NCBI RefSeq assembly: GCF_000003815.2
Contig: NC_049982.1
Location: 31,160,407 to 31,224,406, forward strand
Origin: Branchiostoma floridae
Taxonomy: Eukaryota; Chordata; Leptocardii; Amphioxiformes; Branchiostomatidae
Length of the DNA: 64,000 bases
Reading direction: 5' to 3'
A model generated the notes under the pieces. That model was not told the origin of the DNA. It did no database searches and worked only from the letters and a program-made list of their open reading frames with translations. Made by a program: the position numbers and the translations under genes. Numbering within the stretch: the first letter of the stretch is position 1; each line of letters opens with the position of its first letter. Shown here in pieces: positions 8,371-61,900 of the stretch.

Positions 8371-8732
8371 TGCTCAAACATGGACACGAGAGAAAGAACA
8401 ATCAGAGACTACTGGCAACATGTGACATCACAACTTCACTACATCTTGGATTACACATTTCAAGAATTATGGTGTTACAAATATCATATGGCAGTACCCT
8501 AGCACAATATGATTAAGCCATTGAATGTATTGTTCGTGGAAAATGTAGTCAAACCGAAATCACATGTACTTGACGTAATATACAGGTTGCAATGTGTCGG
8601 TTTAGAAAGTTTGCAAGAACGTGGCATCGGTCGTAGTGGGGAGGATTCAAAGCGTGTAGGTGACGTGTTGGAGAATCTTGCTGCACGGGGTCTCGGTCCA
8701 TGAAAAAGGTTCCAATTCCTTTTGAACGGCAC

Positions 8733-12126: not shown

Positions 12127-13550
12127 TTGGGAGGTGTCAGTGCGGGCTGTAGCAATGAGGATTTCACGATGTGGTTAGCTCTCGGTCCCCTGTGGTTCTG
12201 CGGTAACCCAACCCGGGTCTCCACGGGGACAGTGTACATACAGACAGGACGGGGTGCCGTGTACACGCCGGTAAATATCCGGGGAAACTTACGGTGCCAA
12301 CTTCGACACTAGTGCTATCACGCCTAGATGCACCTGAAAACCCGGTAAACGTGTGGCAAAATCTACGGGAATAGGAGAAGATAGTGAGAAAAATTAGCCT
12401 AAACATCACCCCAAAACCGGCTGTTTTTTTAATGATTTTTTTAGTCGTTTCTATCGGGCTTTCTATGTTTTACTGTGTTGTGACAATACAAGCCTAACCT
12501 CTACTTGGAGAGTACACTTCACTGCAACAAATGAAATTATCGCCAATTATCGATCTGCTACGGGGGCGCTGTCTGTCGTTCTGGAATGCCCGAGCACCGT
12601 CAGAAGAAGTTGGGCTCTGCAGCATGTTCTCTATGATAAATTATGTCAAGCTGAAGGATTAGATCTACTGCGTTCGTTTCTAAACAAAGCCAGGCGCTGC
12701 TCGTTGTTTATTGGTACTAACTTATTACTGACTGGTTACTTTCGATCAGTTTTTGGTCAAACTATTTGTGAAGCATCCCTCATCACGGTTTGGTCAGTCA
12801 CTGTGGAAAAATAGGTAGGATGTTGACTCTAGCCTCCATAGCAGTCTCTCTATGGCCTTTATTGNNNNNNNNNNNNNNNNNNNNNNNNNNNNNNNNNNNN
12901 NNNNNNNNNNNNNNNNNNNNNNNNNNNNNNNNNNNNNNNNNNNNNNNNNNNNNNNNNNNNNNNNNNNNNNNNNNNNNNNNNNNNNNNNNNNNNNNNNNNN
13001 NNNNNGTTTGGTCGAGGATACTGATCTACTTAGATCCTCCCTGACAAGGATGACGACCCTGAAAAACGTTCATATAGAAATGAAGTGAAATAGTATTCAG
13101 GCATAGCTTGCAGGTTGGTAACAGTGCTACAGAAATCCAACGTTCAAAAGTTTTATGTGTCTTCTGAAAGTGTTCTTTCGTTTCCCGATAATCGTAACCA
13201 ATAAAATCTAACACAATAATACCTTGAATGAATAAATAAAATATAAGACAATAAAGGGGTGCCGGAATTCTGCATACAACGAATCTCATTTATTCGTTAT
13301 GTGCATACTTAGAATACCCGGGGCACGAAAATCTGTCAAGTTGACACCGATAATGTATTCAAAAATCTGTCATGAGAAAACTCAGAATTTTAGAATGAAG
13401 ATTTTGTTCGTAGTTTGAAGTATAGTTTGATTTTAATAATACTAATACTAACTAAAAATATTTTAAATCATGCCATTGAAATAACATTTATTTTATTCAC
13501 ACTGTTGCATGCGCAAATAGTTTAAAAACAGAGTTTTGAGAAGGCACAAC
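12127..13550. other. Centre of giant element, outer part
   Basis: Contains decayed MITE sequence with TAACCTCTACTTGGAGAG near 12498, an assembly gap, and AT-rich DNA. I see no coding exon that I can support. Confidence 0.4.
12865..13005. other. Assembly gap (141 N)
   Basis: A run of N inside the centre of the giant inverted-repeat element. The open frames that cross it are artefacts. Confidence 0.99.
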
Positions 13551-13589
13551 CTTGCGTAGTGAGTCACATCCTGAATAACCTTTTGACCG

Positions 13590-14480
13590 CCTTTATGTTC
13601 CGAAGGGAAGTCCCCGTGTTTATACGAAGTCCCAGGAAACCCAATGTAAATGGTAATCTCCAAGCAGATCCTACGGTGCAAAACTGGCCAGGAAGTATAG
13701 CCGGCCAAAGGGTGTGCATTTGCCAACCATCGCTATACCTCCCCGCTGCCTTGTTGTGTTGGAACATGCATTTAATACAAGAACCATTCACATTGAGTTT
13801 CCTGGGATTTCGGAACATAGGGATTGAACCACTTCGCCAGGAAATAACTCAGTTCAAACCCTATTTCTGTCCCCCTTGGACATTCAATGATCGGGAATGA
13901 CACTATTGTGTTCATTATACATGTATTTTCCCACTGAATTATTCATCTATCAACTCACAATTTCTTTCGGATGGATGCCAGACTGTTTCCAGGGCCTACA
14001 CAGGCCTGCTTTTTGGCTCCAGGGCCAACATGCCCCATAAGAAAATCTTATCCCCCTGCGGTAACCCCCGCCGGTCTGGTATCGCCCGTCCATTAGACGA
14101 GGGCTGAAAAGCTCAGCGCGCGGCTATTGTGTCAACTCTCGGAGTGGGACAAACCATTTTCTCATTTGTTTCTCAAGAAACCATAGCCTGGCATCCACCC
14201 TTATTATTGCGTATTAATTGCCCTCTTTGTGCTTAGATAAATACTGTTGGGGACAGGAGACAACTCGGGAGCTATATAACACGGCTAGCCTGGATACCAG
14301 ACCCTCACCCGATCTCAGTAATATCGTAATCTCCAAGCAGATCCTACGGTGGCATAATATAGTATCAAAACTGACCAGTGAGTTTAGCCTGCAAAAAGGG
14401 CGTGCATTTGCCACGCAGGTACACCCCTTGGCAGACTTAACTCCTTGGCCAGTTTTGATGCTACCTTATGTCATCGTATA
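13590..14480. repeat. Nested MITE remnants of the TCTCCAAGCAG family
   Basis: TAATCTCCAAGCAGATCCTACGGTG-type ends occur near 13650 and 14328, with GCCGGCCAAAGGG and AGTATCAAAACTG matching the inside of the 9561-11476 element. GTCCCAGGAAACCCAATGT near 13630 recurs inverted near 13795, so two insertions are nested. No coding sequence is supported. Confidence 0.55.
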
Positions 14481-14674
14481 TATATCGAAATATCACACAT
14501 CCAAATTAGGGTTTTCTCACTCCATCTTCTCGAATTATATTTCATTCACATTACAACGAAAATTAACAGTAAACAGCAAACGCACCTTTTTTGCCGGCCG
14601 TGAATATTTTGAACGAAGTCTTCGGCATTCCTGTGACATCCGATATTTTTTTCATAAATTTTGTCGAGTCTAGT

Positions 14675-15070
14675 TCAGTAGCCTTGATTTGAATTTGAAA
14701 CGCCCGTCTCCTGGTTGGAAGTACATCGATCATGTGCTTGAAGTTTTAGCATGGTGGCAAGGGGAACTTCAACTGGTAGAGTCAAGTAGAAAAGTATGAC
14801 AGTACAACGGAAGATAAAACGCCAGGCAGACAGCAACAACTCCCAAAACATGTCCATTAGGTGAATGATGGTCCGTGTGAGGTAGTAAACAGTGTAGAAT
14901 GCTACGACAATGCGCTTATCTCCGGCTCCGTACAAGAAAAGTCCACGGGGTAGTCCTGTGTTCGGATAATCCGGCGGGTCATGATGGCCTCCTGAAGTGA
15001 AGTGTAGAACGACGCAGACGGTGGTACTGGGAGGAAAGTTGTAACGTTCACCCCGTTTGCAGTGACGTGA
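14675..15070 (-). CDS. Membrane-type open frame in giant-element centre (putative)
   Basis: 131 codons are open after a TAA at 15071-15073, with no ATG near the start, so it is probably an exon or a decayed gene. It reads SRHCKRGERYNFPPST, GGHHDPPDYPNTGLPRG, then two hydrophobic stretches around IVVAFYTVYYL and FIFRCTVILFYLTLPVEVPL, and a short polar tail. It looks like a membrane protein fragment. I cannot name the family. It faces away from the plus-strand exons at 15691-16351. Confidence 0.35.
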   Translation of the reverse strand, partial: SRHCKRGERYNFPPSTTVCVVLHFTSGGHHDPPDYPNTGLPRGLFLYGAGDKRIVVAFYTVYYLTRTIIHLMDMFWELLLSAWRFIFRCTVILFYLTLPVEVPLATMLKLQAHDRCTSNQETGVSNSNQGY

Positions 15071-15690
15071 TTATGTTCTTTAACTTAGCTTGATAAGAGC
15101 ACTAGCAAACACAAATAGGTAGAACGACAGAGAATACATCGCGCGTGAATCAATCTAATGAATCTCTGGCTGTCAAAATCAACTCGCCTGCATGATGGGA
15201 AGGCGGTGAGTCACAACACATGACACATGACTCCGTGGCGCCGGCCGATTTCACGGATGGAGGTAGTCCCACTCCTAACTGAGTCATCTCAGACAAGGAC
15301 AAGAAATAGCAATACCTTCAAGTAGCAAAGACATAAAAAAAACAACCGAAGCCTAATGTCTGCTTGGAGAGTATTCTTTGATGCAAATTATCATGTCTGC
15401 CGTACAGGGCAGTTCTTTTTGGCTAGTTTTCCGCGAGTGAAGAGCGGAAAGGGTTTTTTTTTTTACAACAAAAGAACAAAAAGAACCGATAAAGGATTTA
15501 TAGCCGTATAGAATGTCGCTGTAGTAATAACAGCTTCTCGGAAACTCGTGTATGACGGATATCGCCCTCGTGTTAATTAGCCGTGTCTCCGCACAATGAT
15601 ATCACCAGCCGGTACACAAGGACCCGACGGACCGATGGGAGAGATAAGGCCATGACTCACTGCAAGAGGAGCTGCGTTTGCGGTCCACAG

Positions 15691-15932
15691 ATGCGTGCTG
15701 CCTAGTGCTCGTCAATACATACCAGACAGTTTTCGTTCGTTTCATACCCTTTGGTCAGAGTGCACCAACTTCGATGGCGAAGCCGCGCCTACACAACTGC
15801 ACAGATCAACATTGGTGGTTTGAAGTTGAAGATGGCGAGGTTAACGCTAACATTGCTGGCATTGTCATTGACTATCGTATAGTTGTTGTGCAAGTAGACA
15901 AGTGGACCAAAGACGATACAGTCGCAATACAA
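15691..15932 (+). CDS. Unrecognised exon A in giant-element centre
   Basis: The acceptor is GGTCCACAG and the donor CAA|GTAAGT; phase 1 in, phase 0 out, 80 codons. It reads ACCLVLVNTYQTVFVRFIPF, KPRLHNCTDQHWWFEVEDG, and IVIDYRIVVVQVDKWTKDD. The composition looks like a genuine folded beta-rich domain. The phase-0 donor fits exon B at 16139. Family unknown to me. Confidence 0.45.
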
Positions 15933-16138
15933 GTAAGTATGCGTTTTTAAGCTATTTTTTTTTTCAAATCGTGCTTCGCAATTACTTGTATGTATTTGTT
16001 GTAAGAATGTATTTCTGTATGTGATGTAAAATTATTCTGAGAAAAAGCCATCCTTACGATGGGTTCTATTACGTAGAGTTAGTTGGTGAACTCCAGTTAA
16101 CCTCTGGAGTAGATATTGACGAAGTGTTATTTTCACAG

Positions 16139-16351
16139 GCTGGAAAACGCCATCATGACCAGGATGCGGACGTGTACTTCGTCAAAGTCAAGAGATTCCT
16201 TGTGGGTGAGAACCTTTTCTGTCAGAAGTTTCGTGGATGTTTGACGGCTGATCAGTTTCGTGACAAGTAATATGATCTGGACGCGTTTGGACCATTCAGC
16301 AAGATACACCCGCGAAAAGGAAAAACACTGGAGCTCACGATCGTCGTGAAG
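16139..16351 (+). pseudogene. Unrecognised exon B with in-frame stop
   Basis: The acceptor TTATTTTCACAG and donor AAG|GTGAGC bound 71 codons, phase 0 on both sides. The frame reads AGKRHHDQDADVYFVKVKRF then NLFCQKFRGCLTADQFRDK, a TAA stop at 16268-16270, and resumes YDLDAFGPFSKIHPRKGKTL. The coding signal continues after the stop, so the stop looks like a recent nonsense change in a decaying gene. Confidence 0.5.
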
Positions 16352-16843
16352 GTGAGCTGCTATATATGAACCATTAAAGGCAACCTTAGCAATATTATGT
16401 AAGTCATGTTGTATTAAAACGCATTACATGCATTAAACGCATCTACATCAATATTTCGTAAATTGAGCCATTAAAGACGGCGCAGAATAGCCTGGGTACC
16501 ATCCGTATTCTACCGGGGCTCCTTACACTCGCTACCCCTAAAAAATTAGCCTGGATATACCACACCCCAGCCCGATCTCAAAAATATTTGATTGGACATA
16601 AAGAAAACTTAACAAAATGGAAAGCTCGACAAAACGCCTAAACACTCAAAAAAACAGCCTGGATACCAGACCCAGGCCCGACTTCAGTATGAGGGTGTAG
16701 CTCGGGGCCGGCTGTAGAATTTCCGTGTGGGCACGTTGGCCCTAGAGCTCAGGAGTTGGGGTGTACAGGAATCCAGGCTAGTCAAAAACAGCTGGGGCCG
16801 AACATCTGCTTGAAGAATACTCAAGCGTAGCCATTTCTTGCCC

Positions 16844-16998
16844 TTCAAGCAGAGGTTAGGTGACTGTTTTTTAAACGTTTTTTTAGTCGTTTTTATCGGG
16901 CTTTCTATTTTGTATGGTATCTTATGTGTCAAAACCTAACAACCCCAATAAAAACGACTACAAAAACAAAACAGCCGGAACCTAACCTCTGCTTTGAG
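16844..16998. repeat. Foldback MITE (AGCAGAGGTTAGG ends)
   Basis: The left end CAAGCAGAGGTTAGG and right end CCTAACCTCTGCTTTGAG are inverted. TTTTTAGTCGTTTTTATCGGG inside the left half is matched by ATAAAAACGACTA on the right. The same motif forms the inner edge of both giant-repeat arms (near 11935 and 19770). Confidence 0.65.
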
Positions 16999-16999
16999 A

Positions 17000-19270
17000 G
17001 TAGCTATTTCTGGGATCGATGATCCTGCTGATATGGCTACACCACAGGCGTTCAAACAGAGGGTGCCATTCAGCTTGCCAGGCCAAAATCCGGACAGATA
17101 ATTCACCCCGGTAAATTAACTCAGGCTACATCAGATGACCTACCCTAGTATAAAACAGCTGCCTACCCTAGCCTTTCTTTGTCATCTGCTGCCGCTGGCA
17201 AGGGACATAACTTTCGATCCGACATCTGAGTGATTAGAATATTGTAGAATCAAGGAAAAAGAGCATGATTAAACGTCATTCATCGCTCATCGGTCAGTTA
17301 GACTGTGCTTAGGAACATTGACCCCTCACCCTTAGGGTACATTTAAACTTGTGCGGGAAAAACGTTGTTTTTAAACTTTGATCCACCGTTGTGAAGTCGA
17401 AGACTTGTTATCTGACAAAATAAGTCGTACGCAAGCAAGACAAAAATAGAAAAAAAATGTATATATGTAGGAAGGGCGAAATTACCAAATTGTTTTACAT
17501 CACTTTGTTTCTAGTTTTGATGTGTTGTTTTCGTTAGGGCGAGGTAACTGTTTTCAAATCGCCTGTCACTGTTCATAGTGTGAAGCCTGCAAATTTACAT
17601 AATAATTGTATAGAAAACTGTGTCTAAATCACCGTGTAAGTGTTACATTTGGAGAGATGGATGTAAATAGTCCCCCTTTGACAAGTAAGTTGGTTCGCAC
17701 CAATATCCACGCATATTTGATAACCTTTGATGTTTAAGGGAAAAAGTTGTTTTTTTTCAGTTTATAGAATATCACTTGTGATGCTTATGGAATTGGATAC
17801 ATAGTGCGTCTGGTACATAGTAGGGACGGGCTTGCTAGTAGGGGAGTGGTGAGAGATCAGTTTTGTGACTGTGTGAGTCATGTGTCATGGCAGAGAGCGG
17901 ACACGTGTCTGTGGCTCTCCAGCAAGCATGCAGTCTATATGTGTGCGGGAGATGGGCCGTGTCTACACTCCTTTTTCCTCCATCATACATTTTTGTAGAC
18001 TCTCGGTAGCAATTCCTAATAGCAAATTGGGGACCTTTCCCCTCTTACAAATATGTAACTCATATATATGGACTTGAATATGGGCATAACTGTGAACAAA
18101 CCTTAAAGACTTTACAGGTACAGAGACAGATACCCATAGATGACTGAGAAGAAGCTAAGTGATTTTTCATAAGGTAAGCCCTTGAGGAAACGCAAGCTGT
18201 GCAAAGCTATTGACCCTTAAAAAGGTCATCCTCCTGATAGCCGCAAGTGGTCCTGGTCCTCGCCCCTGTCGTGTAGATCTTATCTACGTATCTATGTATA
18301 AAGAGGCTGCGTGGTTAATACAGGACACGGTTTTATCTGTCATACCGGATAATGGGTTATATTGCCGTCCAGCTGATAGGGAAATATGGGCACTAAAGTA
18401 TACGATGTTAACAGAAGACCAACGTAAAATGGCGGCGCCAAAACAGGCTTTGTGACCGACGTCGGACACAGTTTCACAATAAAGGCCAGTAATGGTAGGG
18501 TCCCTAAGCTAACGAAAGTGGCAGAGTGACATTTAGGAAGGTACACAAAATGTTTGAAGCCTTGCGACCCCTTGAATACAGACAATTGATCACTTTTTAT
18601 GGACCATTCTTTTATCTAAAATAGCTACTTTTGTACATGGGCAAATTACTAAAGAATGAACCACAATTAATTATGGAAACGTGTTGGCCGGCAGTTGTGA
18701 TGACGTTTGTACACAATCTACTCAAAAAGTCATCCTAAAACATTACCTGTTCCCATGGTCGAACTCACGTCGTCCCTTACCAGCGCACAATTAGAAGGGT
18801 CCTCAGAGGAATTCAAGAACTCGTTTGCTACAATATTCCCCCTTTAAAAAGCTTCAAGTAGTGGTAAATTTGACCAAACAAATTTGATTCAAGGTAAATA
18901 ATTTATTCTCTGAGGAACTATAACACTCTCTTGTGGAGTGGAATGCCCCTTGAGACCAAAGTAAAGGCTCACGCCATAACATTTCCGTCTACTTAATAAT
19001 TTCTTCAGTCTTCTAACCCCTTGATTTCAAAAGCTTTTATTTTTCATAACTATTTATATATGTATGTGATACATTTCTATTAAACACCTTGAAATATTCA
19101 TTAGACAGTCGGCTCCCGACAAGTCTATGTGTTATGGCGTCATAACCAATATGAAAACGGGTCTTCTGATTGGTCGACGTCGTCTGGCTATATATCGTGA
19201 TATTAGATACAACATCATATATTACCTTTTGTGCTTTAACAGTGACTAATAATCCGTTCTATTATACGCA
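17000..19270. other. Non-coding centre of giant element
   Basis: Apart from short chance frames I find no splice-bounded coding sequence here. TATA-like and A/T-rich tracts are common but not distinctive. Confidence 0.4.
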
Positions 19271-19274
19271 ATAG

Positions 19275-19446
19275 GTAATGTTGGGGCGGCAACATCTTTG
19301 GTTGCTTCAACGTCCACCGCTACCACCTCCAAGACAACACCGAAGGCTCCCAGGTCCACCTCGGTCCGATCCAAGTCAACACTGACGGCTTCCAAATCCA
19401 TCAACAGTGACGTCGACAGCGGGGACGGATTTGAGCGTCAAAAGAG
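19275..19446 (+). CDS. Ser/Thr/Lys-rich exon C (putative)
   Basis: It lies between ACGCAATAG and a GTATTT donor, phase 1 in and phase 2 out. It reads NVGAATSLVASTSTATTSKT, APRSTSVRSKSTLTASKS and DVDSGDGFERQKR. This is a low-complexity mucin- or linker-like segment. It lies just inside the right arm on the same strand as exons A and B, but continuity with them is inferred only. Confidence 0.35.
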
Positions 19447-20029
19447 GTATTTTCCGCACACCTGACAATATCTTTATACTAGAGAGTGGCATTATATACT
19501 TCAATCGTGGCTTTCATTTTCATCCCCATCAATAGTTTGGATGAATTTTTGTTTCTTTGACACAGGGCCCAATACCTCATTACCACATCCCGCACTGACA
19601 CCTTTCAATCAATCAGTCAAGCTTTATTTTTGTACACATGTACAATTGACTAGAATGACTGACTGACAATTGTTAACCATAAACCCCTATTGATTTTTAA
19701 TCAAAACAAGATACTCAATACGAAATAGAGAGCCCCATAAAAACGACTAAAAAAAGTTTAAGAAAATGAGCCTAACCTCTGCTTAGAGAGTAGTGAAGTG
19801 CGGAAACCTTGGTGTTGGTGCGTGCCGTCACGCCTGTCATGCCAGAACGATAGACAGCGCTAATTTCCAAGCCGATCTTATGGTGGTTTCAGATAGTATC
19901 GCAAGCTTGGGGAAGAAGTTTAGTCGGAAGAGGAGTTTCATTGGCCACCGCGAAGTTCAAGTTCTGTCTACATTTTTATACGCCGATTTCTGTCCGTCTA
20001 AAGTGACAAGCGCAAGCGTGGGTAAGATT

Positions 20030-20179
20030 TAGTCTCCAAGCCTGAAGAGATAGTATCAAAGCTGGCAAAGGAGTATAGCCGGCCAAAGGGAGTCAAACTG
20101 GCACCTGGTGCCGTTATACTAAGTCCCTTGCCAGCTTTGATTCTATTTCTAAGGCACCGTAGGGTCTGATTGGAGACTA
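20030..20179. mobile_element. 150-bp MITE with 9-bp target duplication
   Basis: It begins TAGTCTCCAAGC and ends TGATTGGAGACTA, with AGTATCAAAGCTGGCAA repeated inverted inside. GGTAAGATT flanks both ends (20021-20029 and 20180-20188). Ends and duplication length match the 1.9-kb element at 9561-11476, so it is a short member of that family. Confidence 0.85.
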
Positions 20180-21032
20180 GGTAAGATTGGGGACGGAGTT
20201 TAGCTGGTAGAGGAGTTTCATTGGCCACCGCGAAGAATCCAAGGCAATACGATCGGTAAAGATTCCAAGTTGCAAACAAGAAAACCTGACACAAGAAGTG
20301 CTTAGTTAAGCACACTTTTTATTGCGAAATATACATATACATAACAACTAGACAATATAAAGCGTTATTTGTGCACAACTCACCTACCGACCTAGTCGAT
20401 ACGTTGTCTTCGTCTATTCCAGCGATCTCTGGGGAAAGCCCCCGCTGTGAACTGGCGCGGCTCGCCGCGTTTGTCCCAGATTCTGGCTCGGAAAGGTTGT
20501 AAAACTATCATCCCAGTCAGATTTCACGTAGGAGTAACCCGTAGCAGATAATTGACGATAATTTCCTTGGCTGTACTGAAGTGCGGACCCCGTGGTGTTG
20601 GCGCGTGCCCTCACGCCCCCCTCATTAGCACGCATTAAAAACGGCTCACTTTCACCAAGTACTTCACTTCACTTACTGCGCTCTAATTCATGGGATCATT
20701 GTCTCCGCATCAGAATCATAAACAATGACTCAAGTACCTAAAGACAACCTAAGCATTGTCAGAGAATTAAAACTGGATAATTTTTTTTACGTGATATTGA
20801 CATTTAGTTCACTATATTAGCACATTTAACGTCTAGGGGGTTGTGATTATGTATTCATAACAATAATGGTCCCGATGTCTCAGCGCCCACGTTCCTCAAC
20901 AGATCGTTGTTGTGCCGAAATTCAGCCGCTCAGTTTCACACATCCTTTGAAACTAGCCTTACGAAGCTTAAGTCAGATAATTCAAATTCACTGTCAGTTA
21001 CAAAAGATGCATTTTTTCCCTTCAATTTTCAG

Positions 21033-21185
21033 AACAACGCCCATTCCAGACAAGGAACTGGTGATTCGACTCTTCATGGCGAGGAGACATGTGACTGCGG
21101 AGGCGCTTGCAACTGCCACACTTCCACGTCAAACAAAGAGGAGAACTGTTATCTTCCAGTGGGTCGCATCAAAGATGCCATTTGA
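21033..21185 (+). pseudogene. Right-arm copy of Cys-rich terminal exon
   Basis: The same TTCAATTTTCAG acceptor as at 8901. It reads GTGDSTLHGEETCDCGGACN, NKEENCYLPVGRIKDAI and then a stop where the left arm has Arg (CGA to TGA). The alternative frame (LVIRLFMARRHVTAEALA) stays open longer, up to 21306. Which frame was real is unresolved. Confidence 0.35.
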
Positions 21186-21583
21186 TCAAAACGTGCGTTC
21201 GCTGACGATGTGCCGTCTTGAGTGCCGTTTAAAAGGAATTGGAACCGTTTGCATGGACCGAGACCGCGCGCAGCAAGATTCTCCAACACGTCACCTGCAC
21301 GCTTGAATCCTCCCCACTGCGACTGATGCTCCGTTCTCGAGCACTGTCCAAAACCGTCCCCATTGCAACCTTTATATTACGACAAGTACATGTGATTGCG
21401 GTTTGACTACATTCGTCCACGAACAATAGATTCAATTGCTTATTCATATTGCGCTAGGGTACTGCCATATGATTTTTGTAATTTGTAATTTGTAATACAA
21501 TGTGTAATCCCAAATGTCGGGAAGTTGTGATGCCACATATGTTGCCAGTAGTCTCTGATTGTTCTTTCTTTCGTGTTTTTGCT

Positions 21584-21718
21584 TCACTGCTGAGTTTATA
21601 CCGCAAACGTTTGCGCATCGAATTGTATCGAGCACAAGCTGAATTTGAATTAGTTGATAAGGGCCATGTAGATTTAGAACTTGTAATTAGAGCTATCAGT
21701 AACAAACGAATAGCTTGA
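21584..21718 (+). CDS. Outward-facing conserved frame, right arm (putative)
   Basis: It reads LLSLYRKRLRIELYRAQAEF, ELVDKGHVDLELVIRAIS, NKRIA-stop. The left-arm partner at 8242-8370 keeps frame and stop. A pyrimidine-rich tract precedes it. It may be a helical C-terminus. No family recognised. Confidence 0.3.
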   Translation, partial: SLLSLYRKRLRIELYRAQAEFELVDKGHVDLELVIRAISNKRIA

Positions 21719-22059
21719 ATTACATTGCTGACGAATGCTCAACAAGGGCATGGCATTGCTGAAAATACAACCGATGATTAGCCATGACAAGTATAATCAA
21801 GCTAAATATGAACTGTAAAGGGTCCATCCCTTTACCTCTATACATTGCACCATTTGTATTGTAACCAGTAGTTCTACGTCTTCAGTTGTATAGTTTTCCC
21901 TTTTCCCTTGCCAATCAATACACCTAATTGCAATGGACTAAGAGTGCGTAATTTGCGTATGTATGTGTGAGTGTGATTGCATGCTCATTATATTTGCATA
22001 CTTATATTTAAAATTTATCCCAGCTACTGGCAGGTCGATCGAGCAAACCTACTGACATG

Positions 22060-22385
22060 CCCCAGCCACAGGGAGGGCGATCGCCCCCAAGTACTGAAAG
22101 GTTGATCGCCCCGAGCTACCGTCAGGGCGATCGCCCCTAACTACTAGCAGGGCGATCGCCCCCAACTATCAGCAGGGTGATCGCCCCTAAGTACTGACAG
22201 GGCGATCGCCCCCAAGTACTGACAGGGCGATCGCCCCCAACTACAGGCAGGGCGACCACCGAAAGCTACCAACAGGGCGATCGCCCCGGACTACAGGCAG
22301 GGCGATCGCCCCCAAGTATCCTTCACTTTTGTGAAATCAAGACGACACGACTGGACAATTCAGACTTTGTACGGGGCAATCGCCC
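22060..22385. repeat. Palindromic GGGCGATCGCCC tandem array, right arm
   Basis: Seven exact GCGATCGC cores (from 22077 to about 22310) and several altered ones, at about 25- to 50-base steps, with linkers such as CCAAGTACTGACA and ACTACAGGCA. It is the inverse of the left array at nearly the same distance from the element end. Confidence 0.9.
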
Positions 22386-22537
22386 CCACAAGTCACTATT
22401 CCCAGGACTTGAGTGTCTTGAAAAGTTGCATTCTAATCCAATATGGCTTGATTTTCAAAAAATTTCGCACTGCGTTTTCTGATTATCAAGTCGAAAAAAA
22501 GGAATAAAATGGATTTTCCTTTATTATTTTGGATTCT

Positions 22538-43900: not shown

Positions 43901-46900
43901 GTATACTGTAAATGCCCCTAAGTTCATGAGGATTAACTTTCGCGGTAGCAGGAAAATGGTGGTGGTGGTTTTAAGTTTGCGGTAGCGCCATAGACTGCAG
44001 TCTCATCCTACAATGGATAAATGTTTTTTGGGCTTTTTAAATTTGCGGTGAAGTGTTCACTGTGAAAACCGCGAACATTTCTGCATTTACAGTAACAGCT
44101 GCAAACAGCAGAGTTTGCATAACAAAGGTTAGCTTGTCCACAGTCCTGAGAAGAGAAGTTATAATGTGTTGTACAAAAACATACAATGTATACTCAGTGA
44201 TATAAGAATCATGGTGGACAGTGGGGAGGAAGATTTATTTATTCATTTTTTAATCTAAAGACAAGTGTGTAGCCTGGGTTAGGTTAAGCAAATCTATGAA
44301 AAAAACCCAACCCACCCTCTTTTTCTGTCAATTTTCTCTGTCCAGAGTCTCCAGACTGTGTAACTGTAAGTGACCTTTTGAGTGACACTCCAGACATTTT
44401 TGGCCCATATCTTAACCTTCTTCCAGAGTTTTTCCATGGGTAACTACAAAAAAGGCCATGAAAAATGGAATTCTACAAACAATTACAAATGTCATATAAT
44501 TGCAAACGTCAGTCCGAAAGTCTCTTTGTGACCGTTAAGTCCTTTGTTCCTGACCACTTTGATACCATAATGAAGACAACTTTTATTTTTGCCACACTTT
44601 TTCGATGCTCATGCTTTCATCAGTTCGGAGGTCATCCATAAAATCAACCTAACATGGCCTAATGTACAGCAACTATGATTACAAGTGAACAGACCTCTGT
44701 ATATTGTTTTCTGCCTCAGGTCGGTCTGACTTGTTCAGTCCCAGCACCATGGGGAAACGGATCCTGATGAACTCAGTCACCAGTTTGGGGAGGACGTTGG
44801 AGTCCCATCCAGGGAGGGTCTCTACCAACCTCCTATTGGACAAACAAAAATACATAGATATTAATGTCATTTATTCTATTGTTGAGCACAATGTATTTAT
44901 ACATACATGTATCCTTCACTGTGTAAAAAAAATTGCAAACAACATCTAGTGACCCTGATCTCGCAACGCCTTTTCAGCATAGGGGGCCCTATACATGCTG
45001 TGATTTGGATACCATATGCTGTGATAATGGCCCCTATACTATATTTCAACAAAGAAAGGGGAGTTTTCTGTAGCTTAACATTAGAATGATTACAAAAAGG
45101 TAAAATTAGGTTGGTCATATTTCCCTATATTTGGCCCTCAAAATGCAGGAAATGTTGTTTTGGCGGGTTTAAGATTAAAAGTTTTTAGGAGAAGGATTCC
45201 CCCTAGACCCTTTGCAGTGCTCATGTCTGCATCACATACCATTTGCTGCACTAAGATGTCCCAAGACTGTGAAAAAATCCTGGTGACCTAGACTTTTTCA
45301 GGACAATTACAAACCTCCATCAAGAGGTACTGTTGCACATTGAATACACAACTCAAAATCCGGGACTGTGCACATGTTGTAGCTCCACTTCAGCAAACAG
45401 CTATTTGCTAATTTCTTCAGTTACAAAGAAGTTTCCACCTGTTTAAGGCTTGACATCAATTGGGCTGGCACAGACTACAGTAGCATAGACTTCAGAACCA
45501 AGGACAAAACCTGGTAGAGAGTTATTCCTTTAAGCTCATAAAGTAAAGCCAACTAAATTCAAACAACTTACTTTGCACATCAAGGCAGCATATAGTTGTG
45601 ATGGAAATGGATTGGTAAGATTTGGGGGGTGAAGTAGTACAGGTTAAAATGAGATAATGGACCAGTTATTTTTTTGAGATTCTGTGCAATTAAGAGAAGT
45701 GTGGAAAACCATTGTGCAATTAACTGGCTTCTACTGTATAGAATTCACATGCATAGCTCAATTCAAGCATTATCCAAAGGGCTAGAATAAGATTTTACAT
45801 TTTACAGCTAACAGCAAGATACAGAAATATCTAAGATTTTGAGTTTCTTGATTTTTGTTAGTTGCTGTACCTTGTATCGATGCCAGCTGCAGTAAAGGCT
45901 GATTGGATGGTGGATCTAGAAGCATGGTACCCAGTAAACATGTCCAGCAGCTTAAGTGGTCTCTTCACAATGGACTCCCACTTGTTCATGATGTTGTCAT
46001 AGATCCAACGACTACAAGACAAACATGTCAAACAAAAGTTAGTGTCTTAGTATGAAAGTTCATCTGTGTTGGTAGAATACATTAAAGAGGAAATTGCTAA
46101 ACTTTACTTCCAACACGGAAAAATTATAGGGACTTACCCTCTAAATTTTCGGCCGAACTCCATCGGCCTTGTTCACAGAATGACCCTATCTCCAGCTGTG
46201 ACGTCAGGAACACACCACTTTTGTNNNNNNNNNNNNNNNNNNNNNNNNNNNNNNNNNNNNNNNNNNNNNNNNNNNNNNNNNNNNNNNNNNNNNNNNNNNN
46301 NNNNNNNNNNNNNNNNNNNNNNNNNNNNNNNNNNNNNNNNNNNNNNNNNNNNNNNNNNNNNNNNNNNNNNNNNNNNNNNNNNNNNNNNNNNNNNNNNNNN
46401 NNNNNNNNNNNNNNNNNNNNNNNNNNNNNNNNNNNNNNNNNNNNNNNNNNNNNNNNNNNNNNNNNNNNNNNNNNNNNNNNNNNNNNNNGCCGGGGTGAAT
46501 AAGTATCAGAAAGTCTATGCCGCCCCCCATCTCTGTTGAGTGTGGGCCGGTGGTCTCTAAATGATACTTATGACCCCCTCCTGCAAAAGTGGTGTGTTCC
46601 TGACGTCACTGCTGGAGATAGAGATTCTGTGAACAAGGCCGATGGAGTTCAGCCGAAAATTTAGAGGGTAAGTACCTATATTTTTTCCGTGTTGGAAGTA
46701 AAGTTTAGCAATTTCCTATATAAAAGTTAGTGTCAATGGTACAAGGAAAGTACCGTAGCAAAGTGCAGGGCTCGAAATACCACCTGCATAATATGCAGGC
46801 TAGTGCAGGTAAAATTGGAGCTGTGCAGGTATTTCTGGTGTCTACCTGCACCTAACCTGCACTGGTCCATGTACTGGGTTTTATACATTGATATCATATA

Positions 46901-49900: not shown

Positions 49901-52900
49901 AGCAATCTAAATGTATTCAATGTTCAGGGATTTACTTGTTTATTTTGCATCTTCACCATAACAGTTCTGAAGCTTCCAACACATCACAATATGGTACAAT
50001 GTACATATACATGCAGTGTTTAGACACTAAAGAGGGTAGGCAAGGAGAAACAAGAACATTTCTGCCAAAAGGTATTTACTCAAGCAACTGGATATGGTTT
50101 TGAAACGGTCAGACGTTTCGGATAGAATCCACTATCCTTCGTCAGTGACACTGAAGTGATCTGGAAGAAACAGGTCTTTTATACTCTAACTATGAATGAA
50201 GACAATTTCAGATGTCCAATAGGAAACGTTGTAAGACAATTCAGACTGAAGACATTTGGATTCCAAAGAAAACAAACTTAAGGTAAGGCAAACTCAAGCT
50301 TAAGACAATTTGGATTTCAAAGGATAGCAAGGCTGAGACACAGTTATTGCAAAGTGCATTCAATTTGAATTATCTTACAACGTTTCCTATTGGACAGCTG
50401 AAATTGTCTTCATTCATAGTAGAGTATAAAAGACCTGTTTCTTCCAGATCACTTCAATGTCACTGACGAAGGATAGTGGATTCTATCCGAAATGACTGAC
50501 CGTTTCCAAAACCATATTCAGTTGCTTGAGTAACTACTTTTTGGTGTCTTATTACCTGGATGTCTAACCTACATCGACGTAGTTGTGGTAACAAAAGCAA
50601 AATACTTGAAAAATCGTCATACTTTACCTAAATTAAGGATGACAAAGAAGAAGAAGGTTGAGACAAGGTGTTAAATCATAAACATATTTGAATATTAAGG
50701 TATTACCTGTTTCCTCTTCCCTTGCCATCGGCTGCCCCAGGAACTAACCCTGCAACATCCTTCAACAACACAGGTACCAGTCTCTCCCCTTTGTAGTTAT
50801 GGCCATAGGCTGGAGAAATGTTTCCACAATTCATTTCATTTAAAGGCACATCGTGTAACATTTTGGGCCAAGAAAACAAAAATATTCTTGAGAAGAAAAC
50901 CTTCAAGTGACAATATGTCATGTACAACAACTTTTTAGCATGTTTGCATCATTATATTATCATGGCAGGTGTTTATGAACTGTAGAAAGCAAGCTGCGCA
51001 TTTTAGGCCTGCTAAGTTTCTGAAACAATCTTAAACTACACCCTCCTGTTCCAAACAACATACTGTAACAATGGCTTAAAACATCAAAGTCTGTATGGTG
51101 CAAAGGAATTATTGTAACCTCCCTTCATAAAAACTACGCAACTCTATAGCGTTGATTTCAAATACTAATTGTTAAGAAATGGTAGGAAAATGTACTTTCT
51201 ATATTTGTCTTAGTGTTACGTACTGGAAATTTATGAACAATGAATACTTTTCTAAACAGATGGAAGAGTGGAAAACTTCAAAGGCTTCTCTGATATCATC
51301 CAAATAAAAATGATGGGGGGGGGGGGGGTCATAAGCCTGACAGTATGTTCCTAACATTTACTTTGAACATTTGACCACAATCACATTATTATAAACATTG
51401 CATGATAGAAAAAAATTACCTGCTTCACATCGATGGTCCATCTTGGCACAAGGACAGGGCACACTGAAGTAGGCAATGCCAAAGTTGGGCTCTATAGTAG
51501 TGAAGGGGTGGGCCGCAGTTCTGGCCTGGTTTTGGGCCATGGCTGCATTGAAAAAGGTGGACTTTCCAGCAGAGGGCTTACCCTGGAGAAGAAATTAGTA
51601 AAGGACAATTCAGTACAAATAAACAAAGTACCTGAATAAAAGCAAGTTATTCAAATTCCTACTAGTACTAGTACCACACAGATCAAAATTAGCACTGGAA
51701 AAAGATGAAAGCATTTGTATCAAAATGTTAGGCATTGAAATCCACTCTCTGTTTTGAGCTTAGAGCTTGTCTCATAAGTGCCCGGTTCACTAAACCTAGC
51801 AAATATCATTCAATTTACTGTTTATGAATAATGTCTCTGTCGTCAATGAAAACCACTGTTGTTCAGGTTTGTCAAGTAAAGTTTCGGCACTTTAGATCAG
51901 TATATAAACCTCTGTTACTGAACGGTGTTGTGTGGGACCGCGTGGCGCAGTGGCTGCATTTGCGGCTCGAGACCGAGAGGTTCCTGGTTCGAATCCAGCT
52001 GCTGTGTCACCGATCTTGTGCCCTTGAGAAAGGCATGCCTTTACACGACTTTCCTCACTTAACTCAGGTGTAAATGAGTTAATCTAGTGGCCTTGTGTGG
52101 CTTGGTGGGGCTATGTGGCCAAGACAGGCCTTAGGGGCATGTTCGGGCATGAGCGGCCGCGACCCGCCATGGCACACGTGTCGGGGGGTAAGAGGAACCC
52201 CTTACATCCTTGGTTAGAAGTCCTCCTAAGTGACGGATACTCCGAACAACAAAAGCTGCATCTGCTGGAGCCGCCTCACACGTTGCATACAGTTGCCCCT
52301 GTGAGACTTAGTGCTCAAGCAGACGAGAGGGTGGAGAAGTAATTGCACACGCCTCCTTCACCATAAAAAGTCATGTGCAGGTCAGGCAAACAGGCAAATA
52401 GCCTGTCTGCCTCCTCATCTGTCCAATCGACAGCAGAAAACAAAAAACAAAAAAACTGAACGGTGTTCAGTAGCTCAGATGTTTTCTTAGGTTAACACAT
52501 CCCTACTTAGGCTTAAGTCACCTTTGCAAACTGGGGCCCGACTGGGATGTCTTAAGAAACAAAAAATCAAATTGTATACCTAGAAAAATACACAGATTAT
52601 ACCCTTAAATCTTATTTTGACATTTTGTGTATTTTGAATCTTTTATATCATTCTTTTCGCTCACAAAAGCTGCCTGGCCGGGCCCCTTTTTTAAAAATGT
52701 GACCTAAGCCTTTAAATGAACAGTTGAGTATATAAGAACAAGGCTTTTCTTAATGAGATATTTTGTTTGTCACATGAATATGGCGGTACATTGTGTGTGT
52801 GCGTGTGCATAAATGTGTATGTGTGTGAAAATAGCATGCATCCAGCCTGCCAGTATGTAAGGTGGAAATGGTGTATGAGGATACTTGGAGAATTGGAAAA

Positions 52901-55900
52901 TGTGGTTTGGCCCTGCTCCAAAGTTGTAGACAATCATAACTACACCCACACATGTCTGGGCATTAAGGATATAATATATACCCATGTAGAGCTTGTTTCT
53001 ATCAGTGTTAAGTAATGTTATGTATGAGCTTACCACCAGTCCTATGACAAAGTTCCATCTCCCTCCAGTGTTTCTGCTGTCTGTAACCTCAGGATCCACA
53101 GGTGAGGACAGCAGGTCTGAGAAGTCTGATGGTTCTTCTTCTGCCTGATCCTGACAGTAAAAACAAGAAATCAAGATGTCATATCTATGTGAAACATAAT
53201 ATAGACATTTTGTAACTTTTTTAACAAAACTGTGCATTTTAAACATTACATGTTTCATTCTGACTCACAAACCATCCTCAGTTTTCTGACTTCTTTACCA
53301 TCAATACATGATGTACAACTGTACATTATTTACCAAAATATAATATGTATATGCCAATATACTATATTACATAGGCATAGCCACCTGAGTGACAGGAATT
53401 TGAAGTGAAGGGAAAAATATCAGATTTGTAGGAGTGACAGAAAGTAGGTTTGAAATTCAGAAATGGTAAAATGAGTCATTTATCAACCTTGGCTGACAGA
53501 CATTCTATGTCATGGAAGACACCACTTATTCATGGGGAGGTATGTTTTGTTCTTTGAATTTTCAAATTAAGAGTCATTGCACGAGAAAACCAGGCAGAGG
53601 CCGGAAGATGGGGGTCGGCCAAATCGGCTCATACTTTGTATGTGACTGATTGTGTGATAGGTATGTGGAACTATGAACAGCCATATACTTAAAACCCTCC
53701 AGCTATTTTTCGTTATGGCGTTCTGGGACCCCCCTCAGGGACCCTCCAAAATCCAACAATTTATGCCTGAAAATTACTGAAATTTCGATGGCTATTCTGA
53801 AAAATCTAATTAAGGTACGAACAAAAGTTTTGCATTTCCATATAGCATGGGTTTTAAAGTGTTACAGACCAAAAGTTGAAGATGATGCATTAAAGATAAG
53901 AGGGTGTGCTAGGGGGTTACCTGAACCATTGAAAGCAGAATTTTTGTCACTGTAAATTTTAGTCATTTTTAAGAGTCATTGCAGGAGAAAACCAGGCAGA
54001 GGTCGGAAGATGGGGGTCGGCCAAATCAACTCAAACTTTTTATGTGGGATAGGTATGGGGAACTATGAACAGCCATATGATTAAAACCCTCCAGCTATTT
54101 CCCATTATGGCGTTGTGGGGTCCCCCTCTGAGACCCTCCAAAATCAAACTATTGATGACTGAAAATTACTGAAATTGCGATGGCTATTCTGATACATCTG
54201 ATTACGATATGACAAAAAGTTTTATATTCCCATATTCCATGTGTTCTTAAGTTTTACTGATAAAAATTTGAAGATGAAGTATTGAAATTAAGAGGGTGTT
54301 ACAGGGGGTTACCAGAACCAATGAAAACACGATTTTCAACTCTCTGAATTTCTGTGATCTTTAAGGGGCTTGTTCTCCGACAACCAGCAATTTAAATGAA
54401 TGGTTTTACCTTTACTAGAGAGAGGAATATCTACTAATTGAAAATCAAGCGTCGTCTAATTGGGCCATGTATACCACGAGCCGTGAGCTCGTGTCTTTAT
54501 GGGGATTTTCCAGGTTTTTGACTATGTTAAAACAGGTAATATCTGCTCACTAAGGGGTAATGGACGGCAACTTTTTGGTGTCCCTGTGTAGGATCACTGC
54601 TTAATTGTCAAAAATGCTTCAACCAATTGCAAGTAATTATTGGGGCTCTGTATTGGGGATATAAGGCTACTTGAAAATGAATTATGCTGGGTTTTACCCG
54701 TATTTGTTGCTCTGTAAGTGCTCAATATGGGGTAAGTTATGTCATTTATAGTATTCTTAACTGTCAAAAAAAGCAATACCTATTTACTGCTATTCATTTG
54801 GGCTCTGTATGGGGCATATAAGGATATGTGAAATGGAATTAAGCTGCTTTTACACATCTCAGTATCTCTAAGACGTCAATTAGTTTAAGTCCCTTACAAA
54901 GTGTGCTTTCCCTATGTGATACATAAGGAAAAAGGATCTACATGGGGGTTATCAGTATACTCCACTGCACTGCATTTACTGCACTGCAGGCCACATGAGT
55001 GACCGCATACAATGATAGGCAATCTACAACATAGAAACATGACCCTAACAAAGACTTTTAGCTATTAACAAAATACGATGTGTAAAAGAATACCAATGGT
55101 TTGTTAGTATGCCTGACTGTTCATTTATTCATCACCATAAGGACAGACTAGAAACATTAAGTTTATGAGAAACCTACATATAGAACCCTATTACAATGGA
55201 GCATTCTCTATGCACTGTTGAAATGCATATTTTCACAAATGCACACTTTCAGTTTTCTTGGACTGGTACGATAAGCTGGGTCTGATGTAATTTTTTACCT
55301 GCAAAGGGTAAGAGATTACGATTGTGGCTAGGCCTAAAAATTCACATGTTTGGTACAGAGTTTCTACACAGTTGTAAAAATCATGTTGCAAAACTTTGTC
55401 AAATTACAAAAAAAATCAACTTGCACATGTACATGTGGATAGGATGTTCTCTAATGCCTGTATGAAAGAGACTTTCCTTGTCGTAGAGCCTGTAGTGGGT
55501 AAATGGAAATGATCTGATATGCACTTCAGTTGCTTTAGCTTTATTGATTTGGGCCCTTTGGTTTTAGCCTGAGTTTGCACAAGTTTATGTCTTCAAACAT
55601 GACAGGATGACTGTAGTCAATACTTAGAATTAAAGTATACACTGTCTTCCGCAGCGCCTGCATGCCACTTGCTTTCCTCATCTATCGCTTCCATGTCAGT
55701 GACCATAAATTCTGTGCTTTCTTGCTGTCTTTGTGCTGCTGAAAGTTTGTAATAGCTTGTAATCTGCTTGGCCGTGTGCCCCCAAATTGAAAATGTCAGT
55801 CAGATAGGCCTAAGTTTTCATCTTGTCTGACATCCGTTGGCCGCATTTCCTAGTCCGGATTGCCCAGCCGTCATTGACAACTTGGTAGGACGCCCAATCC

Positions 55901-58900
55901 GGATTCTTCTCCTTGTGACTGTGAGGCTAGGCCAGGGCAATGAGTAGGGCTAGGTACCGGTACAAAACCGGTTTTTCTCATCGGACCGGTCCAGAAAAAC
56001 CGGACCTGAAAAAATTCGGTGGACCGGATGTTGGACCGATTGGAAAAGGAACTGATTATATGATCAGGCATTGACACGTTTTGGGGGTTATCGGTTAAGG
56101 CAAATAACAAGAGCGAAGCAGAGTACACTCTATAGTACTTTTACCAACTTTTACAGTCAATCGACCTACCCTTGTGGGATTTTTACAACACCAGTGGGAG
56201 TCGAATACTACACAATACAGATTTTTTTGCAGCAAAATGGACCATTGTTTTGCGAATCTTCCATTCACAAGTTTTCACATAATGAATCAGGATCAGGTCC
56301 AAACCTAGACCTGATCCTCTGGATCTAATCCGGACCTGGACCTGAATTTTCTGTACTGGTACCCACCCCTAGCCATGAGCTATATACCAGTCACAGCTTG
56401 AGCCCTTCTTGTGTATTCTGTTGTACAATGTATGTAACGTTGGACTCCTGCTCCAGTTCTTTAAAGTGTTCTCCAACGTCTTCTAGCTTGTTGGCTGAGC
56501 TGAAGGCTGTCACACATCCTGGCTCAGGGCAGCAGAACAACGCTGACTTTGACCAACTGCCGATGTTGTGATGTGACTCGTTTGTGACTGTGGGGTACCA
56601 AACGGTGCTGTGTCAGGGTTGGAAGGTCATGTATCTGTGGCACTGTGGCAAAGTTCACTACTTCTCCAACCCCAACACCAAAGGCTCTCTAGACTCGTAC
56701 TAGCATGTCTCAATCAGTTGCAAACAAGAAATTGTTCTATGACTTGAAATCTTCCCATTTTTGCCTTGCACTGCTCTTAACTTGCTTCACCTGTTTGTGC
56801 CACCGCAATTCTACAGTCCTCTATGCCTTCATGGGACCCCCCACGTTTCTTTCATGTATTCAGCGGTCAAGACAACGGTGTATTTCATTGACGTACCGCC
56901 TTATGTGAGTCTTCATTGATGCTATCTTGCGGTCACAAATGTCCTTGCCTCCTGAGGGTCTGAGAAGTCGAAGCACAGAACTTATATGCTAGTTTTCTGA
57001 CCGATCGCTGGCAGAGACAAAATCAGCGGAGCACTGAGGTAACACCTTGCAATTTCTCAAAAACACTTTTATTAGTAAAAGATTCTCGGACTTGACGGTC
57101 TGAAATACACTTTGTAGAATAGCACAGACACTGCTGACCAGTCCTATCGGCAGTTGTTGAAAATGTGGACAAAACACTCCACATACTTGCCTTCATCGTC
57201 CTTCGTAATTACTACAGCCATTGGGATCCATAACTCCATACTAAAAAAAATTGGGACTTTTAATTCGATGGCTCTTTATTCATAATTCACCAACCCACCT
57301 ATCTCACATGCAAAGTATGCGCAGAAGATTGCTGACCCAGTTCTTCTCGCTTCTGCCAAAGATTTCTGATGCAATGACGGTTAGAGTATATCATGTACGT
57401 GGAGACCTGATAACCCCCATGCAGAGCCTCTTTCATTAAGCACCACATGGTAAATACATAATCATTATGATTCTGTAAGGAATGTACTATTTGAGGACTT
57501 ACAGAGCAACAAATGCGGGTAAAAACCTGCATAATTCATTTTCAAGTAGCTTTATATCCCCCATACAGAGCCCCAATAACTACTTGCAATTAGTTGAAGC
57601 ATTCTTGACAATTAAGCAGTGATCCTACACAGGGACACCAAAAAGTTGCCGTCCATTACCCCTTAGTGAGCAGATATTACCTGTTTTAACATAGTCAAAA
57701 ACCTGGGAAATCCCCATAAAGACCCCCCGCTCACGGCTCGTGGTATACTTGGCCCAATTAGACGACGCTTGATTTTCAATTAGTAGATATTCCTCTCTCC
57801 AGTAAAGGTAAAACCATTCATTTAAATTGCTGGTTGTCGGAGAACAAGCCCCTTAGAGATCACAGAAATTCAGAGAGTTAAAAATCGTGTTTTCATTGGT
57901 TCTGGTAGCCCCCTGTAACACCCTCTTAATTTCAATACTTCATCTTCAAATTTTTATCAGTAACACTTAAGAGCACATGGAATATGTGAATATAAATTTT
58001 TTTGTCATATCCTAATCAGAAGTATCAGAATAGCGATCGCAATTTCAGTAATTTTCAGTCATCAATAGTTTGATTTTGGAGGGTCTCAGAGGGGGGCCCC
58101 ACAACGCCATAACGGGAAATAGCTGGAGGGTTTTAATCATATGGCTGTTCATAGTTCCCCATACCTATCACACATAAAAAGTTTGAGTTGATTTGGCCGA
58201 CCCCCATCTTCCGACCTCTGCCTGGTTTTGCCTGGTTTTCTCCTGCAATGACTCTTAAGGCGCAATAAAATCTATGCGCAGCGGGTCTGGTGAATGGTTG
58301 TAATGTTGATAGAGAGAGGAACATCTACTTATTCAAAAACAATCGTCGTCTAATTGGGCCATACATAACGCGAGCCGTGAGAGGGGGGTCTTTATGGGGA
58401 TTTTTCGGGTTTTGGTCTTTAGTAAATCGGGTGATTATATTACTCTATGGGGGGTAAGTCATGGCGAATGTTTGCGAAGTTGTTTGTGAACTATGCATAA
58501 TTGTCAAAATATCATGATTGATAGGCAATATTAATTTGGGCTCCATATGGGGGATTTGGGGATACTATAAAAGGCATTATGCTTATTATATACATGTTTA
58601 ATGTTACTTTTTAATGTTATTAAACTGGTATCTGTTCCTAAATTTATTGTTCATACCAGCTATGTTATGCATAATGAGGAGGCTCTACATGGGGGTTACC
58701 AGGACTCCACAAATGTGATACCATTTAATAGAAAGGGCACATGGATGCGGATATACTTCATGCATATTGAAAAATAACATAGAACAAGACCACAACAAAG
58801 GTCAAGATTAATGCTTTTGGGATGGATACGTGTACATTATACTTTTTTCATCAATGCGGGTGCACTATAAGTACTGCTATAGACAAACAGCATTACATCA

Positions 58901-61900
58901 ATGGTTTGTTAACATGCCTGACTATTCATTCACAACCATAAGGTCATGCTGATTAGGGAACTGATGCAAGTAGGCTAATAAAAAAATGGCCGAAAAAATT
59001 TGCACCCATTATGGTGAGGTGGTGTGGTCAGGAAAGCTGAACAAATGACAAACAGGGTAAGATATACCAAACAACAGATTCTTCATTTTCGTTCTATCAC
59101 ATCTTCTCGTTGGACCTTGGAATTGACGTTGGCATTTTTAGTAATTAGTACACATTAACGTTTGCCGATGTGTTTGCAATCTACTGCATATATTTGCTCA
59201 TTATATGCAGAAAGACTGAATGCAGCTATAGGACTTCCCAGACTATATGCAGAACACAGTGACTGATGATGATTTGCTCATTTTGTAGCTGCTTTGTATG
59301 AATTATAGTATGGTTTAAATCTAAATGTTTTTTTTTTCTGACAATGAAAAAAGCTTATAATTGATGTGCACACCACAAGCCAAAAAACAAAGTCTTTGAC
59401 GAATCCTTTACAAAGAACTACATTAGATTTTAAAAATCTGATTAAACATTTAGCTGTAATTGCTAACAGACCCTGGTAGGACCTAATACTAGACATATTG
59501 CAATTGGGTACAAAATCTCTTGAAAGCACTCCATCTAAATTTAGTTAATTGACTCCATGTTAGTGGCCTCAAATTCTGTGCTTTCATGCTGTCTCTGTGC
59601 TACTGAAAGGCTCAATATTGTAACCTGCTTAGCTGTAATTTTTGTAATTTGTTACTTTAATTTATTCTTTCGTAGCGTCAAAAAAGTGCTTAAAATTGTT
59701 CTATATGTAAAGGGTTTGTCATATATTTCGTTTTTGGTTTGTCCTTACGGTAATGAATGAATAGCAATTGATGTACAGCACTTTGTAACCTAAACTGTGC
59801 GCTATGGTATACCGTAGTTGACATGTGGTCATCATTTAAATAGCCTTATTGAATATTGACATGAGAAAGGCAACTTTTTCCGGGCATTTCTGTATTCGTA
59901 TACTCATTCAGTTCCACAAATCAGCATGACCTTATAGTGGTGAATGAATAGTCAGGCATATTAACAAACCATTGATGTAATGCTGTTTGTCTATAGCAGT
60001 ACCTATAATGCACTCATATTGATGAAAAAAAGTATAATGTACACGTATCCACCCACAAAAGCGTTAATCTTGACCTTTGTTGTGGTCTTGTTCTATGATT
60101 CTCAATATGTATGAAGTATATCCGCCTGCATGTGCCCTTTCTATTAAATGGTATCACATTTGTGGAGTCCTGGTAACCCCCATGTAGAGCCTTCTCATTA
60201 TGTACGACATAGCTGGTAGGTACAAAGTAATTTAGGAACAGATACCAGTTTAATAACATTAAAAAGTAACAGTAAACATGTATAAAATCAGCAAAATTAA
60301 TTTTATAGTATCCCCAAATCCCCCATATGGAGCCCAAATTATTAGCGCCAATTAATCATGATATTTCTACAATTATGCATGGTTCACAAACAACTTTGCA
60401 AACATTCGCCATGACTTACCCCCCATAGAGTAATATAATCACCCGATTTACTAAAGACCAAAACCCGAAAAATCCCCATAAAGACCCCCCTCTCACGGCT
60501 CGCGTTATGTATGGCCCAATTAGACGACGATTGTTTTTGAATAAGTAGATGTTCCTCTCTCTATCAACATTAAAACCATTCACCAGACCCGCTGCGCATA
60601 GATTTTATTGCGCCTTAAAAATGACTAAAATTTACAGTGACAAAAATTCTGCTTTCAATGGTTCAGGTAACTCCCTTGCACACCCTCTTATCTTTAATGC
60701 ATCATCTTCAACTTTTGGTCTGTAACACTTTAAAACCCATGCTATATGGAAATGCAAAACTTTTGTTCGTACCTTAATTAGATTTTTCAGAATAGCCATC
60801 GAAATTTCAGTAATTTTCAGGCATAAATTGTTGGATTTTGGAGGGTCCCTGAGGGGGGTCCCAGAACGCCATAACGAAAAATAGCTGGAGGGTTTTAAGT
60901 ATATGGCTGTTCATAGTTCCACATACCTATCACACATAAAAAGTTTCAGTCGATTTGGCCGACCCCCATCTTCCGGCCTCTGCCTGGTATTGCCTGGTTT
61001 TCTCGTGCAATGACTCTTAAAAATTATACATATTTTCTATAGGCTAGACTGGCTGAGGTGTTAGTGGTCTTTTAACTGTTCCTGAAATGTGTGTTACCTG
61101 TGGCTTTTCCTCGTCGGGTGTGTCTGGAGTCACGTTATGGTTGATCCAGTCCCTGGCTGCCTCCACTATGGTAAACACCATGGCCATGCCGACACTCTCT
61201 TCTGCCTTAGAATAAGGTAAGATAGAAACACTGTGTCACAATGAATCTATCTTCTACATTTCACATACTGTAAATACATTTAAGTTTGCAGGGATTTAAC
61301 TTCGGGGTAGCAGGAAAAAGGATTTTTTGCGGTGGTTTTAAGTTCGCGGTAGTACTTATGCAATGTAGTGTCTTACTGCCATGGAAAATGTTTGCGGTGG
61401 TTTTAAGTTCCCGGTGAAGCGGCCAAGGCAAAAACCGCGAACATCAAACCACCACGAAAGTTTCTGCATTTACAGTAGTAGCAGTCAATTAAAAATTATG
61501 GTCATAAAGACTCTACATTTATGTGCACGCATGTCTAACACTCACCTGAAAGGGATTACAGAACATAACAGACAGTGCATATTAAGTAAGTGTGAGTCAT
61601 CTATATTCAGAAAACTATATAGTCTGTATGCCAGCATTTTTTAGCTTAGGTTCAGTATGGTCTGAAGTTGCTCCCTGGGGCAAAAAGACTGGTCCCGCAC
61701 ATTATTCTTTTAACCTGTGGTTTGACAGAATGTGCAGAGATTTATTTACCCTTCCTGGCCACATAGATTTTAGCTAATCTACAAGAAGGTCTATCATTGG
61801 TTGAGGCAGGTATACTACTATATTGTTCACACATTTACATTCAGTTTCCTGAAGCTTAGAAGATGCCATCCATATAATCAAATCACTATTGCCTACACTT

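Follow-up and report, generated by a model that had tools for sequence, protein, structure and literature searches.

How can the limits of a transposon, and the site that it duplicated on arrival, be known when no second genome is at hand? A predicted intron of Branchiostoma floridae offers an answer. In the window (the whole stretch of DNA analysed here, 64,000 nucleotides of contig NC_049982.1, numbered from its first base), one transposon has inserted into an arm of another. The second arm of the older element was left undamaged and serves as the locus's own empty-site control, so that boundaries and target are known from the locus itself. The most interesting part lies elsewhere, in arms that have been evened out while a difference between their extreme ends has been spared; otherwise this is ordinary transposon biology. 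With arms that were evened out and a left-right difference that stayed, one can ask by what means long-armed elements maintain similar arms, and whether movement requires ends that are not alike.

Nested Insertion and Empty Site

The locus holds a real nested insertion, an unusually clear case of an ordinary kind of event. The ends GAGTCATTGCA...TGCAATGACTC are common to the outer and the inner element, and TTAA stands on both sides of each. All four ends are exact (53571, 53973, 58254 and 61016), and TTAA adjoins every one of them. The parts are as follows, from left to right:

53567..53570 (no strand): TTAA flanking the outer element on the left (target-site copy)
53571..61016 (no strand): outer element, 7446 bp in its present state and 3160 bp once the insert and one TTAA are removed
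53571..53972 (+): first part of the outer left arm, ending at the insertion
53969..53972 (no strand): TTAA flanking the inner element on the left (target-site copy)
53973..58254 (no strand): inner element, 4282 bp
53973..54725 (+): inner left arm
57491..58254 (-): inner right arm, matching the inner left arm in inverted orientation at 94.8%
58255..58258 (no strand): TTAA flanking the inner element on the right (target-site copy)
58259..59003 (+): second part of the outer left arm, past the insertion (outer positions 403-1147)
59870..61016 (-): uninterrupted right arm of the outer element (outer positions 2014-3160), matching the left arm in inverted orientation at 92.7%
60615..60618 (-): TTAA in the outer right arm, marking the preserved empty site
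61017..61020 (no strand): TTAA flanking the outer element on the right (target-site copy)

When 53972 is joined to 58259, a 3160-bp outer element with inverted arms of about 1.15 kb is restored, and these arms align as a single inverted repeat of 1162 columns at 92.7% identity, running across the junction. The inner element, 4282 bp long, has inverted arms of about 0.75 kb with 94.8% identity. Among 676 joins tried near both boundaries and compared with the other arm, the best four remove 4286 bases, that is to say, the 4282-bp inner element and one 4-base TTAA, with a small margin in score (231-230 for these four, 228 for the next join). Terminal inverted repeats are thus present at both ends, as in TIR DNA transposons of the cut-and-paste type, and a target-site duplication is demonstrated against the empty site for the inner element only.

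In the window, GAGTCATTGCA has 4 exact matches, and 6 when one mismatch is allowed, against a mean of 1.30 in 100 shuffles, one of which also reached 6. Inverted pairs of 11-mers beside TTAA number 20 in the window, and 18 of them lie within the two elements, so that the empty site is a stronger argument than the ends by themselves. In the rest of the window, blastn found no further copies of either element. The first-pass annotation had proposed the nested insertion with these boundaries, the TTAA target and the preserved empty site, and the exact ends, the TTAA flanks and the arm alignment spanning the junction bear it out on each of these points.

Two other readings of the same letters have to be weighed here. 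It could be supposed that palindromic or allelic sequences were misjoined during assembly, since inverted repeats are difficult to assemble and the window contains two runs of N. Those runs (12865-13005 and 46225-46488) fall outside the nested region, the arms are distinct (95.7% identity within the outer pair against 69-74% between elements), and both elements end exactly at TTAA; an assembly artefact is therefore rejected as extremely unlikely. The length of the duplicated site is a finer matter. The target is a palindrome, so the precise limit may be placed at more than one point inside TTAA, and the same letters fit a 4-bp TTAA duplication with ends beginning in G, a 2-bp TA duplication with ends beginning in AG, or no duplication at all. 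The earlier statement that the target duplication is fixed thus holds for TTAA as the site, while its length is formally 4, 2 or 0. If TA were duplicated, the ends would read AGAGTC and TTAA would be merely a preferred context, as in TA-targeting families. The letters cannot tell TA from TTAA, but the T and the A outside TA recur at both insertions, and also at a third family end (described below) if one change is allowed, and a TA family would require them by preference. For this reason TTAA is the simplest reading, and we regard TA as a very unlikely target.

Predicted Host Intron and Its Neighbourhood

Both elements lie in one intron, which is predicted from the sequence:

53151..61097 (-): predicted intron, 7947 bp, holding both elements

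Its donor is GTAACA and its acceptor TGTCAG, with phase 0 on both sides, and the figure given earlier, that the two elements fill 7446 of its 7947 bases, is correct. The intron had also been assigned to a GTPase gene. The prediction of a 7947-bp intron stands, but the GTPase gene is not established, as the preceding exons code for an RWD domain (37.3 bits, exon pieces joined). Farther downstream, and also on the (-) strand, exon pieces at about 51594-48888 encode a GTPase domain, MMR_HSR1 (E 6.9e-10, pieces joined); they begin about 1.5 kb past the next exon after the intron.

Several other features were seen nearby. Between the RWD and the GTPase exons, a tRNA-Ser (cga) is predicted on the plus strand at 51936-52008, which may be a tRNA-like repeat. 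Farther away, the region 7483-22507 shows signs of a large inverted duplication: ORFs that resemble each other lie on opposite strands (8549-8935 and 20830-21306; 7483-7867 and 22198-22507), and two inverted 11-mer pairs stand beside TTAA at 12031/12055 and 19672/19696.

Relatedness and Evening of the Arms

The inner and outer arms are 74-75% identical over 715-870 bases in local alignments and 69-74% identical in a four-arm alignment, in which the outer arm pair reaches 95.7%. The two elements are distant members of one family. The first-pass annotation had spoken of insertion into another copy of the element's own family; the family is the same, but at 69-75% in the arms the relationship is distant.

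The four-arm alignment has 846 gap-free columns, of which 574 are invariant, 81 are singletons and 22 fall into other classes; of the remainder, 168 pair the arms by element, 1 pairs them by side and 0 crosswise. The sole column pairing them by side sits where the two inner arms align poorly. The columns group by element (168 against 1), so the two arms of each element have been homogenised after the lineages separated. One feature groups the arms in the opposite way. At positions 19-28 of the right end, both elements carry a 10-bp duplication which is found in neither left end, and this single 10-bp gap groups the arms by side, against the 168 columns:

58227..58236 (-): 10-bp duplication of the inner element, right end only (four-arm alignment)
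60989..60998 (-): 10-bp duplication of the outer element, right end, one base different (four-arm alignment)

The likely explanation is that gene conversion between the arms left the extreme end untouched, or that selection favoured ends which differ. Alternatively, instead of one ancestral duplication that was spared, two independent 10-bp duplications may have arisen at the same place.

Contents of the Inner Element

In addition to its arms, the inner element carries other material, and the outer element shares a small part of it:

57223..57383 (-): third, decayed family terminus; 117 of 155 aligned bases equal to the outer left end
56418..57242 (-): broken reading frames with stops and frame changes; no Pfam or PDB match
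55659..55775 (-): remnant of a 39-aa peptide; 32 of its residues align with the outer copy (tblastn E 2.8e-8)
59544..59636 (-): counterpart of this remnant, located centrally in the outer element (tblastn against the window)
55945..56371 (no strand): 427-bp hAT-like non-autonomous insert within the inner element

The third terminus scores 87-107, where the highest values in 50 shuffles each were 36-44. At 57383 it faces left and abuts the inner right arm, and its edge is the place where both outer arms keep TTAA; the edge itself reads CTAA, and the inner left arm is without TTAA at the corresponding place. A left end of this third, decayed copy was not found in 54500-57600.

The broken frames are read as the remains of a gene. 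Their three joined pieces, decayed as they are, gave 0 Pfam matches at E up to 10 and no match to a solved structure in the PDB. The 2 peptides, and those six of a set of nine ORFs which fall within the elements, likewise gave 0 Pfam matches, and Rfam at gathering scores gave 0 matches in the window. In the 56-base core shared by the two peptide remnants there are 7 substitutions; read in the frame of that peptide, they fall at codon positions 2, 3, 3, 1, 2, 2 and 1, and the lack of a third-position bias speaks against a coding signal in the shared piece. A 134-residue query found 2 pattern matches in viral contigs and 40 in prokaryotic contigs, with 0 confirmed in either, which is the expected outcome for such collections. 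The 15-base end TTAAGAGTCATTGCA matches 76 viral contigs, and by a rough estimate these matches are due to chance in so large a collection; with blastn, neither element matched those 76 viral loci at E 1e-3.

An element of the hAT type is expected to have an 8-bp target duplication and inverted ends. The 427-bp insert, located between the broken frames and the 39-aa remnant, is flanked by the near-repeat GCAATGAG (55937-55944) and GCCATGAG (56372-56379), in which 7 of 8 bases match, so that its 8-bp duplication is a near-duplication; 19 of 23 bases match in its inverted ends. Two ORFs overlapping it (55871-56140 and 56056-56328) have no Pfam match, and the insert is short enough for a non-autonomous element. 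The first-pass annotation had mentioned neither the third family end nor the broken frames, and neither the hAT-like insert nor the homogenisation of the arms.

Probable Order of Events and Proposed History

The differences between the outer arms are distributed very unevenly. Positions 1-80 hold 4 differences and two 10-bp gaps, the 539 bases of positions 81-619 hold only 3 differences, and positions 620-1099 hold 38. For 3 in 539 against 38 in 480, Fisher's test gives p 4e-10, a value to be read with the fact that the limits of the near-identical stretch were picked after the differences had been viewed and that the denominator of 480 was entered by hand. This stretch spans the insertion site at outer positions 402/403, so it most likely formed before the inner element landed; the insertion would probably be later and recent.

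The inner arms differ by 29 within 753 bases (p 8e-5 against the near-identical outer stretch); beyond the arm as drawn by blastn there are 3 more differences, giving 32 in about 780 (p 3e-5, the denominator having been entered by hand). Provided that mutation has affected the two elements equally since the insertion, most of the differences between the inner arms, and most of the damage to the inner frames, predate it. With its frames damaged before the insertion, the inner element would have moved with a transposase made elsewhere. This order of events would be less secure if the stretch arose by two separate conversions, one halting on each side of the insert.

The preferred history is the one in which the near-identical stretch came first. 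Very probably, these are two non-autonomous, long-armed transposons of one diverged TTAA family, whose full history would run as follows. The outer element would have entered the intron at a TTAA, and its arms would later have been evened out, most likely by gene conversion. The inner element would have arrived already with its broken frames, the remnant of an older family member and the hAT-like passenger, and would have inserted at a TTAA in the outer left arm, duplicating that TTAA. Its mobilisation, presumably by cut-and-paste, would have depended on a transposase supplied from elsewhere and acting in trans.

Family Assignment and Comparison with Known Systems

The ends had been described as unlike the usual CCC ends of piggyBac, with Kolobok or an undescribed TTAA family suggested in its place. 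The first part is confirmed: piggyBac shares the TTAA target, but its ends are CC...GG and begin with CC, and here all four ends are GA...TC, so that membership in piggyBac is rejected. In the second part, the end rule of Kolobok agrees with the locus, but no transposase was matched.

Another candidate is the Sola3 group of the Sola superfamily, which has a TTAA target and GAG ends and whose transposase carries three aspartates. The ends GAG...CTC are present here beside TTAA. The strings FDFSDPQ and GGKDICD in the broken frames are, as we take them, reminiscent of three-aspartate transposases of the Sola3 type. Against Sola3 stand the broken-frame pieces, with no Pfam match at E up to 10 and no solved-structure match, and the rule for Kolobok ends, which is obeyed equally well. 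Sola3 in place of Kolobok is a real possibility, though somewhat short of an even chance, and it would be compatible with the nested reading. The candidate superfamilies are Kolobok, which fits by a published end rule, and Sola, whose Sola3 group would fit by target and ends.

According to passages of PMC9587614 and PMC6004289, Kolobok elements target TTAA and have ends of the form 5′-RR...YY-3′. The GA...TC ends of our elements follow this rule as printed in PMC9587614, and the TTAA target duplication of Kolobok is present too, ambiguous in length because TTAA is a palindrome. Kolobok, including the non-autonomous T2-MITE of Xenopus, resembles the present elements in its TTAA duplication and its start with two purines, as far as these passages describe it. 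In contrast, AG is the start of the ten full-length Xenopus copies that Table 5 of PMC6004289 lists, and here the ends begin with GA. The arms here are about 0.75-1.15 kb long, and no Kolobok DDD/E transposase was recognised in the decayed pieces. In Repbase, as PMC4455052 states, a non-autonomous element is assigned from the length of its target and from the first 11 bases of its end. Among the matches listed in a literature search, no title or opening part of an abstract named this element.

It is also conceivable, though unlikely, that ends, long arms and broken frames all come from a TTAA family whose transposase lies outside the described superfamilies, with arms kept alike by repeated gene conversion and a 10-bp right-end duplication spared from it. 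If this were true, the duplication was perhaps spared since pairing by the transposase needs unlike ends. In outward form, the foldback elements FB, Galileo and Tetris, which have very long inverted arms and a small or broken centre, are similar to the elements described here, and the similarity is one of architecture only. Galileo itself is a member of the P superfamily, according to the abstract of PMC4168063.
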